Of a DNA stretch of 43,826 nucleotides, positions 1,851 to 43,826 are shown one piece after another (the stretch's first letter is position 1; the number at the start of each line of letters is the position of its first letter). The DNA comes from Candidatus Azophilus lithoversatilis (lineage in GTDB: Bacteria; Pseudomonadota; Gammaproteobacteria; Pseudomonadales; Azotimanducaceae). Location of the stretch: NCBI GenBank assembly GCA_028278675.1, contig JAQAJJ010000012.1, positions 13,217 through 57,042 on the forward strand, in the 5' to 3' direction. Both the position numbers and the translations under genes were made by a program. Under the pieces are notes generated by a model, which was not told the DNA's origin, made no database searches, and saw only the letters and a program-made list of their open reading frames with translations.

Positions 1851-1932
1851 ATCCAGCGCGGCGAAAGCGTTTGGCTCTGGACAGCATCCGTGCGGTTCGG
1901 GGAAACTGGGCATTCCCTTTCCGCAGGTGCCT

Positions 1933-2290
1933 TTCATGGAACAAATGGAGACAGCCCAGCAGCTGGCGGGTTGTTCCTTCGACATCGGCGGCGTGCCGTA
2001 CTGGGGCAAGCTAAGGGCTTTCATGGAACAAATTGAGACAGCCCCGCGGCTGACGGGTTGTTCCTTCGGCGTCGGCGGCGTGCCGTTCTGGGGCAAGCTA
2101 AGGGCTTCCATGGAACAAATGGAGTGTTCCTTCGGCGTCGGCGGCGTGCCGTTCTGGGGCAAGCTAAGGGCTTCCATGGAACAAATGGAGACAGCCCACC
2201 GGCTGGCCGCTCGTTCCTTGGGCGTCGGCGGCGTGCCGTTCCGGAGCAAGCCGCAGGCTCTCACGGAACATTGGAGACGCCCCCGCCGCG
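1933..2290. repeat. Tandem array of an 87-bp repeat (repeat B)
   Basis: Units begin at about 1933, 2020, 2107 and 2173, giving periods of 87, 87, 66 and about 87 bp, followed by a decayed partial unit near 2260. The short third unit lacks 21 bp. All lengths are multiples of three, so frames are kept throughout. Each unit carries GGAACAA and TTGTTCC as an inverted pair (for example 1938-1944 and 1971-1977), and the 21-bp deletion leaves this pairing possible. The unit is free of stops in three frames. A single 87-bp copy in inverse orientation lies inside the acyl-CoA ligase gene at 19424-19510. The stretch 1776-2400 holds no other gene I can support. Confidence 0.9.
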
Positions 2291-15896: not shown

Positions 15897-16310
15897 ATGG
15901 CGGAGCAATCAACAACTAATCCGTTCGGCTTGCCGGGGTTCGACCTTGGCGAGATGATGCAGCGGCTGCAGCCGCCCGGCGTTGATCTTGGCACGGTCAT
16001 GGAGCGGGGAGCCGAAGACATAGAAGCGTTGCGCCAAGCCAACCAGACGATGGTGGACGGCTTCACGGCGCTGGCGCAGAAACAGGGCGAGATCTTTCAG
16101 CGCACCCTGGAGGCGTGGCGCGATGCCGCTGCCGAAGGGCGCATGGCCTCGCCGCAAGAGGGGTTTGAAACGGCGCTGAGCAACATGCGCGAGCTGGCCG
16201 AGATTGCGGCGCAGTCGCAAGCCCGGGCGGCGGAGATCATTCGCGAGCGCATGGAGGCGAATCTGGCCGACTTGTTCAATCCGCCGGGCGGCGGCAAGGC
16301 CGACGACTAA
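15897..16310 (+). CDS. Phasin family protein
   Basis: A 137-residue, mostly helical protein of the phasin family, which coats polyhydroxyalkanoate granules. It shows the typical amphipathic helix region (about residues 30-125: EDIEALRQANQTMVDGFTAL and EIAAQSQARAAEIIRERME). A good ribosome site (AAGGGGAAA) precedes the ATG. No PHA synthase gene is in the window, so granule association is inferred. It lies just before repeat C, whose left edge includes the TAA stop, and upstream of two lipid acyltransferases, suggesting a storage-related cluster. Confidence 0.75.
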   Translation: MAEQSTTNPFGLPGFDLGEMMQRLQPPGVDLGTVMERGAEDIEALRQANQTMVDGFTALAQKQGEIFQRTLEAWRDAAAEGRMASPQEGFETALSNMRELAEIAAQSQARAAEIIRERMEANLADLFNPPGGGKADD

Positions 16311-16399
16311 CGAGACGATGCCTCAGACTGACTAACAGGCGGTCGCCGCACGCAAAAGTGACTAATGTGACAACCTCATCCCGCGATCCAGAAATCTAG
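16307..16399. repeat. Dispersed repeat C, copy 1
   Basis: A 93-bp stretch running from CTAACGAG to ATCTAG that aligns over its whole length with 21705-21798, with about 25 differences. Shared blocks include CGATGCCTCAGA, GGTCGCCG, CGCAAAAGT and CCCGCGATC. It overlaps the phasin stop codon and ends 8 bases before the GTG of the first WS/DGAT. It carries no coding sense. It may be the end of an insertion sequence or a miniature element; I cannot assign it. Confidence 0.65.
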
Positions 16400-16407
16400 G
16401 CCGGACC

Positions 16408-17820
16408 GTGGAGCAGCTTGGCGGCCAGGACGCCTCCTTTCTTTACTTCGAGACCCCCACCACCCACATGCACATCGGGTCGGTGGCCCTCTACGATCAA
16501 TCGAGCGCGCCGCGCGGGCGGGTGCGTTTTCGCGACCTCGTTGACAACGTGCGCAAGCGCTTGCACTTGGCGAAGTGCTTGCGCCGCCGGGTGGTGGAAG
16601 TGCCTCTGCAGCTCGACCATCCCTATTGGCTGGAGGATCGGCACTTCGACCTCGAATACCATGTGCGCCACATCGCCCTGCCGCCGCCGGGAGACTGGCG
16701 CCAGCTGTGCCGCCAGTCGGCGCGCCTGCACTCCTTTCCCTTGGATCGCGCCCATCCGCTTTGGGAGATGACCGTCATCAGCGGCCTCAAGCACATCGCC
16801 GGGGTGCCGGAGGGGGCCTTCGCCGTGCTGCTGAAGGTGCACCACGCCGCCATCGACGGCGTCTCAGGCGCTGCTCTGACCGAAGTGATTCACGACGAGT
16901 CGCCAAAAGCCGTCCGGGTGCCCCTGCCGGACAAAATATGGGTGGGGCAGCCGGAGCCTTCGGCGCCGGAGCTGATGGCCCGCACCTTCGGCAACAACGT
17001 GCTGCAGCCGTTCCGCTTTGCGGAAGTGCTGTCGCGAACCCTCCCGGCCATGCAACGGGTGTCCGCATCCTTGCCGAGCGCTGAGCACGCGGGGCGGCTC
17101 AACGTGCCGCGCACCCGCTTCAACGCGCCGGTGACCGCTCATCGGGTCATGGACGGCCGCAGCTACACCTTGGAGGCCTTGCGCCGCATCAAGCGGGCGG
17201 TGGAGGGCGCCACCATCAACGACGCCGTGCTGACCGTGATTGGCGGCGCCCTGCGCCGTTATCTGCAAGCCCACGATGAACTGCCGGATGAAGGCCTGTC
17301 GGCCATGGCGCCGATCAATGTGCGCAGCGCCGATGAATCCGCGGCGGAGGGCAACCGGGTCGCGGCCTTGACCGCTGGCCTCGGCACTGAGATCGACGAT
17401 CCCCTGGAACGCCTCGCGGCGGTGCGCGACGGCACCCGGCAAAGCAAGGCGTTGACGGAAGCCATCGGCGCTCGCCTGATGACCGACTACTCGCGCTTCA
17501 TCCCTGCCCAGTTGGCTTCGCTGGCGGCGCGCCTCTACACCAGCTACGGCATGGCGGAGCGCGCCATGCCGGCTTTCAATTGCGTGGTCACCAATGTGCC
17601 GGGGCCGCAGAAGCCGCTCTACATGTCGGGTGCCAAGCTGCTGCGCACCTATGGCCTCGGCCCGCTGTTCGACGGCATGGGTCTGATCTTCCCGGTGTTC
17701 AGTTATGCCGGGGACATCACCATTTCGTTCACCTCCTGCCGGGAGATGCTGCCGGACCCGGAGCGGCTCGCTGACGCTCTCGATGAGTCCTTCCAGGCAC
17801 TCGACTCGGCAACCGCTTAG
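16408..17820 (+). CDS. Wax ester synthase / diacylglycerol acyltransferase (WS/DGAT), first copy
   Basis: Transfers acyl groups from acyl-CoA to fatty alcohols or diacylglycerol to make wax esters or triacylglycerol. The product is 470 residues, normal for the family. The active-site motif HHAAIDG is at 145-151, the PLW motif is HPLWEM, and the ND motif is INDAVLTV. The N-terminus (EQLGGQDASFLY) matches the canonical start, which supports GTG at 16408 although the ribosome site is weak and lies within repeat C. The second WS/DGAT follows after 12 bases, so the two are likely one operon. Confidence 0.9.
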   Translation: MEQLGGQDASFLYFETPTTHMHIGSVALYDQSSAPRGRVRFRDLVDNVRKRLHLAKCLRRRVVEVPLQLDHPYWLEDRHFDLEYHVRHIALPPPGDWRQLCRQSARLHSFPLDRAHPLWEMTVISGLKHIAGVPEGAFAVLLKVHHAAIDGVSGAALTEVIHDESPKAVRVPLPDKIWVGQPEPSAPELMARTFGNNVLQPFRFAEVLSRTLPAMQRVSASLPSAEHAGRLNVPRTRFNAPVTAHRVMDGRSYTLEALRRIKRAVEGATINDAVLTVIGGALRRYLQAHDELPDEGLSAMAPINVRSADESAAEGNRVAALTAGLGTEIDDPLERLAAVRDGTRQSKALTEAIGARLMTDYSRFIPAQLASLAARLYTSYGMAERAMPAFNCVVTNVPGPQKPLYMSGAKLLRTYGLGPLFDGMGLIFPVFSYAGDITISFTSCREMLPDPERLADALDESFQALDSATA

Positions 17821-17832
17821 CAGGAACCGACC

Positions 17833-19353
17833 ATGCTGCAGCAACTCGGCGCCCAAGATGCCTCCTTCATTTACCAGGACACGCCGGCCACGCCGATGCA
17901 TGTGGCCTCGGTCGCCATCCTGGATCCGTCCACGTCGCCCTACGGGCCGCTGACCCTGGAAGCGGTGATGGGCTTCTACGAGGAGCGCCTGCACCTGATG
18001 CCGACCGCCCGCCGGCGGCTGGTCAACGTGCCCTTCGGCTTGGACCATCCCTACTGGATCGAGGATGGGGGCTTCGATCTGGAGTACCACATTCGCGAGG
18101 TCGGCCTGCCCGCATCCCAGGATTGGCAGGCGCTCTACACGCTGGCAGCGCGCATTCTCAGCCGTCCGTTGGACCTGAGCCGCCCGCCCTGGGAGGTGTA
18201 CCTGGTCCACGGCCTGGACCGGCTGGAGGGGGTGCCGGAGGGTTGTGTCGGTTTGCTGTTCAAGACCCATCACTGCGCCATTGACGGCGCTTCGGGCTTG
18301 GAGATGGCCTTGGCCCTGGCCGACTTGGCCCCGGAGATGGCGCCCGTGCCGCCGCCGTCCGAACCTTGGTGCGCCGACCCGATGCCCCATGAAGGGGAAC
18401 TGCTGTTCCGCTCCTGGGGCAACGCGCTGCTGCGGCCGCTGCAAGTCGCGGAATTCCTCGCCAAGGCGGCCCCTGCGGCGCCGGCATTGCCCGAATCCAT
18501 GCGACAGGAGCTTCCGCAGGCCACGCCTGTGCCCAAGACCCGCTTCAACGCGCCGGTCAGCGCCCATCGCGTGGTGGGCTTTGAGCGCTTTTCCCTGGAC
18601 GCAGTGCGGGCGGTGAAGAACGAAGTCACAGGCGCTACGGTAAATGACGTGGCATTGACCCTGTGCGGCGGCGCTCTGCGGCGCTATTTGCGGGAGAAGA
18701 TCGAGCTGCCCGAGGATTCGCTGCTGGCCATGGCGCCGATCAGCGTGCGCAAGCCTTCGGCCGAGTATGGGCAGGGCAACGCAGTGTCGGCCATGTTCGT
18801 CACCATCGGCACCCACATCGAAGACCCGATGGAGCGCCTCAAACATGTGCGCGACACCACCGCGGCAGCCAAGCAGATGGCCAATGCGGTCGGTGCCGAC
18901 ACCATGCTGCGCACCAACGAATTCATGCCGGCGGCGGTGTCCAACCTCGCCCAACGCCTGACCACGGAGTTCGCCCGCGCCAACCAGGCGGCGCCGGCCT
19001 TCAATTGCTCCATCACCAATGTGCCCGGCCCCCAGGTGCCGCTCTACACCATGGGCTGCCGGACCCTGACCACCATTGGCTACGGCCCGGTCACGCACAA
19101 CATGGGACTCATCATGCCCATCAGCAGCTACTGCGGCGAATTCACGATCAGCTTCACCTCGTGCCGGGACATGATTCCCGACCCGGACTTCTTCATGGCC
19201 TGCATCCGCCACAGCTTCGAGGAAACCCGCACTGCCGCCCTGGGCCCTGACGCGCAGGACAAGGTGGCGGCCATCGCCAAGGACTACAGCCGCATGGCCG
19301 AATCCGCACTGGCGGAGGTGCGCGCCGCCCGCGCCAAGGCGTATGGGAGTTGA
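17833..19353 (+). CDS. Wax ester synthase / diacylglycerol acyltransferase (WS/DGAT), second copy
   Basis: A 506-residue paralogue of the preceding gene with the active-site motif HHCAIDG at 146-152, the RPPWEVYLVHGL equivalent of the PLW motif, and VNDVALTL as the ND motif. The start ATG gives MLQQLGAQDASFIYQDTP, canonical for the family. It has an extra C-terminal tail of about 35 residues ending in a charged helix. Its end overlaps the broken acyl-CoA ligase by 11 bases, suggesting that the ligase once supplied acyl-CoA to these transferases. Substrate range cannot be read from sequence. Confidence 0.9.
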   Translation: MLQQLGAQDASFIYQDTPATPMHVASVAILDPSTSPYGPLTLEAVMGFYEERLHLMPTARRRLVNVPFGLDHPYWIEDGGFDLEYHIREVGLPASQDWQALYTLAARILSRPLDLSRPPWEVYLVHGLDRLEGVPEGCVGLLFKTHHCAIDGASGLEMALALADLAPEMAPVPPPSEPWCADPMPHEGELLFRSWGNALLRPLQVAEFLAKAAPAAPALPESMRQELPQATPVPKTRFNAPVSAHRVVGFERFSLDAVRAVKNEVTGATVNDVALTLCGGALRRYLREKIELPEDSLLAMAPISVRKPSAEYGQGNAVSAMFVTIGTHIEDPMERLKHVRDTTAAAKQMANAVGADTMLRTNEFMPAAVSNLAQRLTTEFARANQAAPAFNCSITNVPGPQVPLYTMGCRTLTTIGYGPVTHNMGLIMPISSYCGEFTISFTSCRDMIPDPDFFMACIRHSFEETRTAALGPDAQDKVAAIAKDYSRMAESALAEVRAARAKAYGS

Positions 19354-20477
19354 ATTGGCCATCGACTTGAGCGACATGCCGGCGGCGGCCGCGGCGTTGG
19401 TCGGCCCCGGCGGCCCTTATGAAGCCCTTAGCTTGCCCCAGAACCGCACGCCGCCGACGCCGAAGGAACAACGCGCCAGCCGCTGGGCCGTCTCCATTTG
19501 TTCCTCGGAAGTGGTGGAGAGAAACATCGACGGCGCCGCCCTGCGCCTGTTTCGCCACGCCCCGGCCAATCTGGGCGCACTGTATCAATCGGCGCTCGAT
19601 GCGGGCGAGAAAACGTTCTACGTCCATCAGGACGAGCGCTACACCTTTGCCGATGCCTGGGACCAAGCTGGCCGAGTGGCTGCGGGGCTCGGTGCCTTGG
19701 GCTTGGCGCCCGGTGATCGGGTGGGCATCTCGCTGCGCAACTATCCCGAATGGATCTGGAGCTTCATGGGCATCACCCGCTTGGGGGCCGTGGCGGTGGC
19801 CATGAACTCCTGGTGGACGGCCGAGGAGATGGCCTACGGCATCGAGGACAGCGGCCTCGGTTTGCTGATCGTCGATCGGGAGCGCCTGGCGCTGCTGCCG
19901 CCTGCCCCGAGGCCGTTCAAGGTGGTGGCCGTGCGCACGGAGGGAAACCCGACGCCAGGCGTGTTGGCTTGGGAAGACTTCACCGCTTCGCAGAGCGATC
20001 CCGGCTTCGCGGCTCCAGTGGGTCCGCAAGCTCCTGCCACACTGCTCTACACTTCCGGCTCGACCGCCCATCCCAAGGGTGTGCTGTCCACCCACCGGGC
20101 CGTCATTCACGCCCTCCTGGGCTGGGAGGCGGCGGGCGCCTTGGCCGCGGCGACGGCAGATCAACCGCCGCCGGAATTGCCGTGGCAGCTATCGATGATC
20201 CTGACCGTGCCCTTGTTTCACGTCACCGGACTGAACGTCCACTAGCTGTCGTCCTTCCGCCACGGGCGCAAGCTCGTCGGCATGTACAAGTGGGATCCGG
20301 AGGTGGCGCTCAAGGTCATCGAGCGTGAGCGCATCACCCACTTCAACGGGGTGCCGACCATGGCTTGGGAACTGGTGCAGTCGCCGAGTTACGACCGCTA
20401 CGACCTCTCAAGCCTGGTGAGCATGGGCGGCGGCGGCGCGGCCATGGCCCCGGAGCACAGCCGCCAGATCAACCGGC
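19343..20477 (+). pseudogene. Acyl-CoA synthetase (AMP-forming), interrupted and truncated
   Basis: An ANL-superfamily acyl-CoA ligase that would activate fatty acids with ATP and CoA. From the ATG at 19343 it reads through a family-like N-terminus (GPGGPYE), an in-frame 87-bp repeat insertion, then VVERNIDGAALRLFRHAP and the adenylation core with the P-loop TLLYTSGSTAHPKGV. A TAG stop at 20243-20245 interrupts it (LNVH, stop, LSSFRHGRKL), and the same frame continues as MYKWDPEVALKVIERERITH to AMAPEHSRQIN, where the DNA changes at about 20470-20480. The C-terminal half, with the ATP-binding TE motif and hinge, is missing. It is dead as an enzyme. Confidence 0.85.
19424..19510 (-). repeat. 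87-bp repeat B inserted in frame within the acyl-CoA ligase gene
   Basis: One unit of the 87-bp repeat that is tandem at 1933-2290, here in the inverse orientation. It is exactly 87 bases and is bounded on both sides by GAA (19421-19423 and 19508-19510), compatible with a 3-base target duplication. Removing it restores GPGGPYE next to VVERNIDG, the expected family sequence. It adds 29 codons (ALSLPQNRTPPTPKEQ and so on) without a stop. The same translation frame is open in the glnS-side array when read on the minus strand. Confidence 0.85.
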
Positions 20478-21704: not shown

Positions 21705-21798
21705 CTAACGAGGCGATGCCTCAGAGCAACGAGTGGCCGGTCGCCGGTCGCAAAAGTTGACTCATGTGGCAACCTTGACCCGCGATCAAGGAAACTAG
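21705..21798. repeat. Dispersed repeat C, copy 2
   Basis: Same orientation and extent as the copy at 16307-16399, running from CTAACGAG to AACTAG. It fills the gap between the dehalogenase and acyl-CoA dehydrogenase genes, and its right end supplies the TAG stop of the acyl-CoA dehydrogenase. The two copies bracket about 5.3 kb carrying both WS/DGATs, the broken ligase and the dehalogenase. Confidence 0.65.
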
Positions 21799-37252: not shown

Positions 37253-37342
37253 TCGCGCTCCCCGGCTGAGGGCTCCTTCATGCGAGGCGCGACCCCCTCG
37301 CGCTCCCCGGCTGAAGGCTCTCACCCGCACCGCGGACAGCGC
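37253..37342. repeat. 45-bp direct repeats (repeat D), copy 1
   Basis: TCGCGCTCCCCGGCTGAGGG starts at 37253 and recurs with few changes at 37298 (TCGCGCTCCCCGGCTGAAGG), a 45-bp period. The inverse complement of the same family, again with 45-bp period, is at 43741-43826. Blocks are GCGCTCCCC and GGCTC. It lies in a 574-base gap (37028-37601) that has no other gene apart from the elements listed. Confidence 0.7.
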
Positions 37343-37393: not shown

Positions 37394-37490
37394 TGGGCAA
37401 GGGCTCGATTCCGCTCCGTTCGAGGTCAATGCCAATCCGCTGGGACGTCGCTCCCATTCGCAACCAGCGAACGGGACTTGATCAGAGGTT
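37394..37490. repeat. Dispersed repeat A, copy 2
   Basis: Bases 37394-37465 equal 1-72 exactly, and 37466-37490 continue the match with 85-109 (two mismatches). It lacks the 12-bp insertion seen in copy 1. Both copies are downstream of a minus-strand gene. Confidence 0.8.
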
Positions 37491-37612
37491 CCCCAGACGG
37501 CCTCACGGCATCGAAGGGCGTGGTGGGCTTTGCAGCCAAGCTGGACGCCACCGAAGCGGAGATTCAGCGGGGCTGCATCGCCAATGAAGCGAGTCGGCTG
37601 TTCACGAACTGA
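37491..37612 (+). pseudogene. Unassigned C-terminal-like remnant
   Basis: After repeat A the plus-strand frame reads DGLTASKGVVGFAAKLDAT then EAEIQRGCIANEASRLFTN and a stop at 37610-37612. It looks like the end of a protein (helical, ending ASRLF) cut by the repeat, possibly a hydrolase tail, but I do not recognise the family. It overlaps the end of the SDR gene by 11 bases. Confidence 0.25.
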
Positions 37613-43292: not shown

Positions 43293-43741
43293 TGCTGGCT
43301 CGCTTGCTGGAGCGTATTCAAGCGCCGGCCGACGAGGACGGCCGGGAGACCACCGTTGAACTGGCGGCGGCGGTGCTGCTGATTGAGGTGGCATGGGCCG
43401 ATCATCAGGTTGCCGATGCCGAACTGAAGGCGATTGAGCGGGCTCTAACAGCCGTGTTTCAACTTGACGGTGATGACGTGCGCACCTTGATCGATGAGTC
43501 CCGCACGGCGCAGCGGGAAAGCGTCGGCCTGCATCGATTCACGCGGGCCATCGTTGACGCCTGGAGCGCGGAGCAGCGATTCGAACTGTTGGTGCAGCTA
43601 TGGCGCTTGGCCTACTGCGATGCCGGCCTCGACAAGTACGAGGAGGCAACCGTCCGCAAGATCGCCGACCTGCTCTACGTGGACCACCCCCGATTCATCG
43701 CCGCCAAGCTCAAAGCGAAGCGGCTCGCGGCGGCGGGTTAG
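43292..43741 (+). CDS. TerB-like protein
   Basis: A 149-residue helical protein of the TerB (tellurite-resistance B) family, recognisable by the acidic motif region VAWADHQVADAELKAIERAL and the repeat-like LAYCDAGLDKYEEATVRKIADLL. Such domains bind divalent metal and act in membrane-linked stress systems; stand-alone copies next to core genes are common. The ATG overlaps the dusA stop (TGATG), so the pair is coupled. Its TAG lies at the start of the 45-bp repeats. Confidence 0.85.
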   Translation: MLARLLERIQAPADEDGRETTVELAAAVLLIEVAWADHQVADAELKAIERALTAVFQLDGDDVRTLIDESRTAQRESVGLHRFTRAIVDAWSAEQRFELLVQLWRLAYCDAGLDKYEEATVRKIADLLYVDHPRFIAAKLKAKRLAAAG

Positions 43742-43826
43742 AGCCTTCAGCTTGGGGAGCGCGAGGGGTCCGCCCCTCGGAGGATGAGCCGTCAGCGTGG
43801 GGAGCGCGAGTGGTGCGCCGCTCGCG
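43741..43826. repeat. 45-bp direct repeats (repeat D), copy 2, running off the window
   Basis: GAGCCTTCAGCTTGGGGAGC at 43741 recurs as GAGCCGTCAGCGTGGGGAGC at 43786, a 45-bp period. The units are the inverse complement of those at 37253-37342. The first has a hairpin CGAGGGG/CCCCTCG (43762-43779). It overlaps the terB stop and continues past the window end. It may act as a 3' end element. Confidence 0.7.

Follow-up and report, generated by a model that had tools for sequence, protein, structure and literature searches.

An 87-nt repeat lies in frame within an acyl-CoA ligase gene of Candidatus Azophilus lithoversatilis, in the 43,826-nucleotide stretch of DNA analyzed here (the window), which raises the question of how it came there and whether it belongs to a mobile family able to enter coding DNA. 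That the gene holds an 87-base, in-frame and stop-free insert, as the first-pass annotation had proposed, is confirmed in the window sequence. The length stands, while the boundaries, placed at 19424-19510, shift by one base when empty and filled sites are compared (Table 1); the profile match covers 19425-19510 (model positions 1-86) and is followed by a final G.

Removal of the insert had been predicted to restore the sequence of the ligase family, and the orthologues in two relatives of the same genus (G008 and G002) indeed have an empty site, reading CCCTTACGAAGTGGTGG with exactly this unit absent. The G008 orthologue is 83% identical and forms a 622-aa open frame. Were the 29-residue segment instead ancestral ligase sequence, homologous ligases would be expected to carry it; both close orthologues cover the site without it, and the same DNA occurs at dozens of unrelated places, so this explanation is rejected and its probability is negligible. 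The host gene has decayed, as had also been claimed: an in-frame TAG stands at 20243-20245, similarity runs on to about 20500 (tblastn with the orthologue), and similarity to the relative's 622-aa frame ends at residue 415 of that frame. Two adjoining and mutually similar WS/DGAT acyltransferase genes lie upstream of the ligase (window 16408-19353).

Table 1. Window features of the 87-nt family, and gene insertions with an empty site in relatives
Site	Coordinates	Strand	Feature or host gene	Observation
Window	19425..19511	+	Inserted 87-nt unit (CCCTTAGC...GGAAG)	29 codons, stop-free, own GAAG at end
Window	19421..19424	+	Target GAAG, pre-insertion	Reads TTACGAAGTGG at the empty sites of the G008 and G002 orthologues
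Window	19343..20245	+	AMP-binding ligase remnant hosting the unit	PF00501 at residues 84-297 of a 300-aa frame; one unit; frame open across unit
Window	1932..2251	-	Four-unit head-to-tail array	Same 87-nt family, second window site
L046			Biotin carboxylase/carboxyltransferase, 1,166 aa	Frame open
L091			Eco57I-type methylase	Frame open up to end of stretch read
L092			MaoC protein	Frame open
L093			CcmI, cytochrome c biogenesis	Two units, 174 nt, 58-residue insert; frame open
L096			Unnamed protein	Frame open
L072-3602			EF-hand protein	Frame open
L102			Glutathione S-transferase	Decayed unit; frame open
L087-897				29 residues added directly before stop; frame open
L110			Start codon of a presumably dioxygenase-like gene	CCATGGAAG end of unit provides new ATG; open
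L113			Presumably SnoaL-like gene	87-nt copy introduces stop; not open
L087-1929			Presumably UbiA-like gene	239-nt array, frameshift near gene end; not open
L101				176-nt array, frameshift; not open
L077			Near gene start	Stop within unit; not open

A search of the window's own genome (G000; 3.77 Mb, 104 contigs) bears out the recurrence of the unit. Its 32-nt core, with at most 3 mismatches, matches 159 times against 0 for the reversed control, and the left-end pattern matches 188 times, 94 per strand, again with 0 in the control; an earlier genome search, with 40 of 198 candidates scored, had given at least 74 unit matches. A profile search of the window and of 71 regions taken around listed matches, which include part of the family's copies, identified 170 complete or partial units (83 plus, 87 minus). 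With clusters defined as same-strand units at most 120 nt apart (the nearest opposite-strand neighbour lies at 257 nt), these units form 93 clusters, namely 45 single units, 24 of two, 19 of three and 5 of four, all unit counts being lower bounds as N runs interrupt some arrays. The spacing within clusters is exactly 87 in 49 of 77 cases. The consensus unit following the target NRAG is CCCTTAGCTTGCCCCAGAACGGCACGCCGCCGACGCCGAAGGAACAACCCGCCAGCCGCTGGGCTGTCTCCATTTGTTCCATGGAAG, and four of its six frames are stop-free.

At L069 (1020-1334) a tandem variant has diverged from the unit and ends in TTTAAAAG rather than CATGGAAG. The window also holds a dispersed repeat (1-122 and 37394-37503; 97% identical over 78 nt) and a repeat beginning CTAACGAGRCGATGCCTCAGA (16307-16359 and 21705-21757; 79% identical over 53 nt). 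A known RNA family was rejected as the identity of the unit, as Rfam gave 0 matches at gathering score in the window, and the exact 24-nt pattern used to look for phage carriage had no match in viral_contigs.

Of 38 genomes searched, own included, five have unit matches at E 0.001, all belonging to the same genus and G000 among them, with 21 matches in G002, which lies outside the following 120-genome draw. In these 120 genomes of the taxonomic family, own included, the left-end pattern clearly outnumbers its control in G000 (188 matches), G008 (7, control 1) and G007 (5, control 1) alone; G004 gave 1 match and 1 in its control, and seven genomes of other genera gave 8 in total against 6 in the control. 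The copies of relatives have diverged, and those in the stretches read stand singly. Expansion of the family has taken place in the window's species.

Empty sites in close relatives were found at 16 of the 29 distinct sites examined, which comprise a first set of 16, a second set of 13 (one common to both) and the ligase. Flank queries gave an empty site at 9 of 16 in the first set and 6 of 13 in the second, the alignment being loose in 4 of these 15 (L093 and L110 in the first, L107 and L072-2004 in the second). In the first set, the flanks of L060, L083, L075 and L082 had no hit in relatives, and L072-2599, L116 and L097 were left out for poor alignment; in the second, 7 sites had no junction-spanning match in relatives.

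At sites with clear junctions, the unit follows, on the 3' side and without a gap, a tetranucleotide that was already in place, mostly NRAG. Before 70 left edges it reads GAAG (n = 35), AAAG (n = 9), GGAG (n = 8), AGAG (n = 4), CGAG (n = 4) or one of ten others found once each. The unit brings its own GAAG or AAAG, and 97 of 110 complete copies have NAAG at their 3' end. The left tetranucleotide predates the unit at the ligase, at L087-897, at L113, where relatives read CACGAG/GTCG against CACGAG-unit ending GAAG-GTCG in G000 (the slash marks the junction), in three of four relatives at L092 (AAAG in the fourth) and in one of four at L087-1929, the empty site of G007 there being GGGAG; at L046, L077 and L101 the present target is at least one base different from the sequence in relatives. 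Target duplication is usually absent, with L052 and L060 resembling 4-nt duplications, and among the 19 single copies with a left tetranucleotide other than a plain GAAG, 2 have identical ones on the left and right. The likely duplications at L052 and L060 count against the account preferred below, as do arrays L053, L057 and L068, where GGAG or CGAG closes the preceding unit.

The left end of the unit varies together with its target. Target position -2 and unit position 5 are A-T at 47 of 71 own edges, G-C at 16 and other at 8 (Fisher p 1.4e-11 on the A/G by T/C cells, which hold 63 of the 71), and the same two pairings occur in 19 of 23 copies of relatives (p 5e-4) and in 44 of 46 among the pattern matches listed in the genus; the three sets partly overlap, and the p-values are nominal because copies are related by descent. 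G000 has two left-end types, AAG/CCCTTA (82 full copies) and GAG/CCTTCA (17); the only positions where the difference between them exceeds 25% are -3 (26%), -2, 3 and 5. A third type, GAG/CCCTCA, is found in six copies of G002 and G008 and in 2 of 33 among the matches listed in G000. Within clusters, GAG is followed by TTC in 5 of 5 cases and AAG by CTT in 55 of 59. Linkage in the unit peaks for the trio -2, 3 and 5 (r2 0.56-0.67; the next value is 0.40) and is low over the unit as a whole (mean r2 0.03), and the value for type-B nearest neighbours is 0.11 against 0.19 expected (p 0.78). These observations tentatively suggest, as something possible rather than probable, that left-end bases pair with the target, either choosing it or being rewritten to match it, and that several target types (AAG with CTT, GAG with TTC and GAG with CTC) coexist in a single family.

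Another repeat family in the window (43741-43824 and 37278-37308), with 45-nt spacing, starts with GAGCCTTCAGCTTG; it shares its left end with the GAG type of the unit and differs from there on. It may share a mobilising system with the 87-nt unit.

The full account that we prefer, with confidence that is evenly divided, is that of a non-autonomous mobile 87-nt family with HUH/Y1-type movement. A single-strand enzyme of this type (IS200/IS605- or RAYT-like) would mobilise the unit, and the target would be chosen through pairing of left-end bases 3-5 with target RAG. Because the unit ends in its own GAAG, each inserted copy would be a new target, giving head-to-tail arrays of 87-nt period, some of which would be extended further by unequal duplication. 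Copies in protein linkers would often be tolerated, since 87 equals 3 x 29 and stops are lacking from four of the six consensus frames, and selection would remove the rest.

The covariation could also reflect protein recognition of a near-symmetric junction, if a double-strand recombinase or transposase were to read dyads at the two ends (RAG-CC-YTY on the left, TTCCATGGAA on the right). Single-stranded DNA folding of the unit only slightly beats shuffles (z -1.8 and -1.7; 10 of 200 shuffles equally good) and compensatory changes are almost absent from the predicted hairpin pairs, which counts for such an enzyme, as do AAG-CC-CTT and GAG-CC-CTC, inverted repeats whose 2-nt spacer is too tight for an ordinary hairpin. 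However, GAG-CC-TTC, the commoner G type in G000, is incompletely symmetric, and positions 79 and 84 of the right-end dyad, also considered as a right-end guide, show no significant covariation (p 0.16). We regard double-strand recognition as unlikely.

As to a single-strand enzyme, PF01797 finds 0 genes in G000 and detects RAYT in G008, G002 and G007, the G002 protein scoring 104.4 bits (cut-off 80). A search with RAYT reached a 370-aa frame with an NHFHL motif in G000, which scores 39.1 bits with the REP-associated tyrosine transposase model (cut-off 80) and 16.4 bits with Y1_Tnp (cut-off 23), below both cut-offs. G000 has a second Y1-like gene, 78% identical over residues 23-256 in one 340-aa open frame, and a shorter match. 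The long Y1-like protein occurs in G000, G004 and G005, and in G008 only at E 2.6e-4; it is absent from the repeat-carrying G002 and G007, and G005 has the protein and 0 repeat matches. No units were found near the Y1-like genes (best E 0.26 and 0.91) or beside the RAYT genes of G008, G002 and G007, and RAYT was rejected as partner of the unit since none adjoins the Y1 genes of these relatives. The divergent Y1-like enzyme of G000 would be at most a candidate mobiliser, proposed from sequence. For a Y2 (IS91-like) transposase, matches were obtained in G007, G003 and G005 and none in G000, G008, G002 and G004, a weak negative given that 0 of 14 control genomes were positive. With folding weak and the enzyme having no units nearby, we infer the HUH/Y1-type mechanism rather than observe it.

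A REP-like inverted repeat, GAGGGCGGGACGCCCTCG, recurs flanking units at L086, L100, L108 and L073. A similar repeat, seen by eye from translations, seems to lie near the G002 RAYT (L252) and may be the substrate of that enzyme.

The missing linked DNA transposase also suits movement via RNA, in which target-primed reverse transcription would insert the unit and annealing or snap-back synthesis would produce the left-end match. The left-end type is unlinked to the rest of the unit, as if rewritten on insertion, but linkage over the whole unit is so low that this says little, and the window has no poly-A or Rfam match. An RNA route is improbable, and more so than double-strand recognition.

Adjoining full copies are slightly more similar than random ones (0.901 against 0.880; 19 pairs, p 0.05). 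Array neighbours are 97-99% alike in L081, L105 and L114 and 67-80% in some other cases, and fused and internally deleted units are also present; in the window array, unit 2106-2170 has an internal deletion and the opening bases are missing from unit 2172-2251. Arrays could have arisen either through successive insertions at the GAAG that the unit itself supplies or through duplication afterwards, and the data fit both. The likeness of adjoining copies and the 48 of 93 clusters with at least two units are what a minisatellite would give if it grew and shrank by slippage and was scattered by ordinary recombination, MIRU-like in a loose sense. The MIRU of Mycobacterium are dispersed tandem units of similar size, some over gene ends; compared by description only, the 87-nt unit differs in its single dispersed copies and fixed target. 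The 45 single copies, the empty sites at 16 of 29 and the fixed target require insertion and largely refute dispersal as a minisatellite, which we consider very improbable, although slippage may explain part of array growth.

Fourteen of the 16 empty-site insertions are inside or at the edge of genes, and the frame is open in 10 of these 14 and not in 4 (Table 1), a rate biased upward because several gene sites were queried after being seen open. As four of six consensus frames are open, about two-thirds of random single insertions are expected to be open; 10 of 14, given the biased choice of sites, is thus no evidence of special frame-keeping, and selection for frame was rejected for want of an excess. 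The insert lies outside the Pfam-matched stretches in all seven proteins with matches (ligase, L046, L091, L092, L093, L072 and L102). A coding-like frame is open across the unit in 15 of 93 clusters, and the majority of copies seem either non-genic or disruptive to the gene they entered. The frame of L082 (TonB-plug-like) is open across the unit, and the search for its orthologue gave none; L105 and L073 were excluded because their matched domains start downstream of the insert.

The first-pass annotation had likened the unit to Rickettsia palindromic elements (RPEs), and this stands insofar as the unit is inserted, is lacking in sister species and has some in-frame copies in open genes, so that copies also occur beyond intergenic DNA and dead genes; it holds only in part, as four of the gene-associated insertions do not leave the frame open. 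Insertion lengths are not always multiples of three, since the 239-nt and 176-nt arrays frameshift their genes.

In the accounts cited, short repeats lie in frame in unrelated genes of Rickettsia, some encoding tens of residues (PMC10969869, PMC2996958, PMC3733652). The 87-nt unit shares with RPEs, compared by description only, this in-frame insertion in unrelated genes; it differs in host lineage, in copies that seem mostly non-genic, in common arrays and in its NRAG site with matching left end. PARCEL repeats are described as mobile palindromic elements with empty sites in related genomes, tandem copies and domains that are kept coding (PMC2996958); the unit resembles them in empty sites and tandem copies, and differs in that PARCELs are coding domains.

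REPs, palindromes of 20-40 bp that carry a GTAG or CGTC tag, often come in opposite-orientation pairs, and in-frame intragenic REPs are reported in several bacteria outside Rickettsia, with more than half of the GTAG/CGTC inserts being dimers or groups encoding 20-30 residues (PMC3733652). Like REPs as described there, the unit seems to lie mostly between genes with some copies within ORFs, and a tetranucleotide marks one end; unlike them, it is 87 nt long, NRAG/GAAG, head-to-tail and weakly palindromic. The GTAG/CGTC end tag of REP/RAYT systems is replaced by an NRAG target and, in most complete copies, the NAAG end, and no repeats flank a RAYT gene in G008, G002 and G007 or the Y1-like gene in G000.

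In IS200/IS605 elements a target tetranucleotide adjoins the left end, and its equivalent closes the element on the right (PMC6006769); guide-target pairing is described for them and shown for one REP system (PMC8266576, PMC6006769). The 87-nt unit likewise lies 3' of a fixed tetranucleotide, with a matching right end and, L052 and L060 excepted, no duplication, and the covariation of its left end with the target resembles their guide-target geometry. It differs from IS200/IS605, as portrayed in these sources, in having no clear guide-bearing hairpin pair or linked Y1 gene, and from IS608 in that only 2 nt separate the supposed guide from the target. It is not a classical MITE, as the ends CCCTTAGC and CATGGAAG are, by eye, not inverted repeats and duplication is irregular. 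Within the terms searched, no publication on the family was found in the open-access literature. In-frame intragenic repeats and guide pairing are already known; the insertion rule, including the covariation between left end and target, is the unexpected part.

With about 170 natural copies, many of them with empty sites in sister species, the insertion rule of so short a mobile unit can be read from sequence. The family gives examples of in-frame protein extension by selfish DNA outside Rickettsia, such as the 58 residues in CcmI, and one case of a new start codon. If the proposal is true, guide-target pairing could be read from natural copies of an 87-nt element that has neither a linked transposase nor the customary hairpin ends, and a true guide at the left end would make this a very small system for direct tests of target choice.
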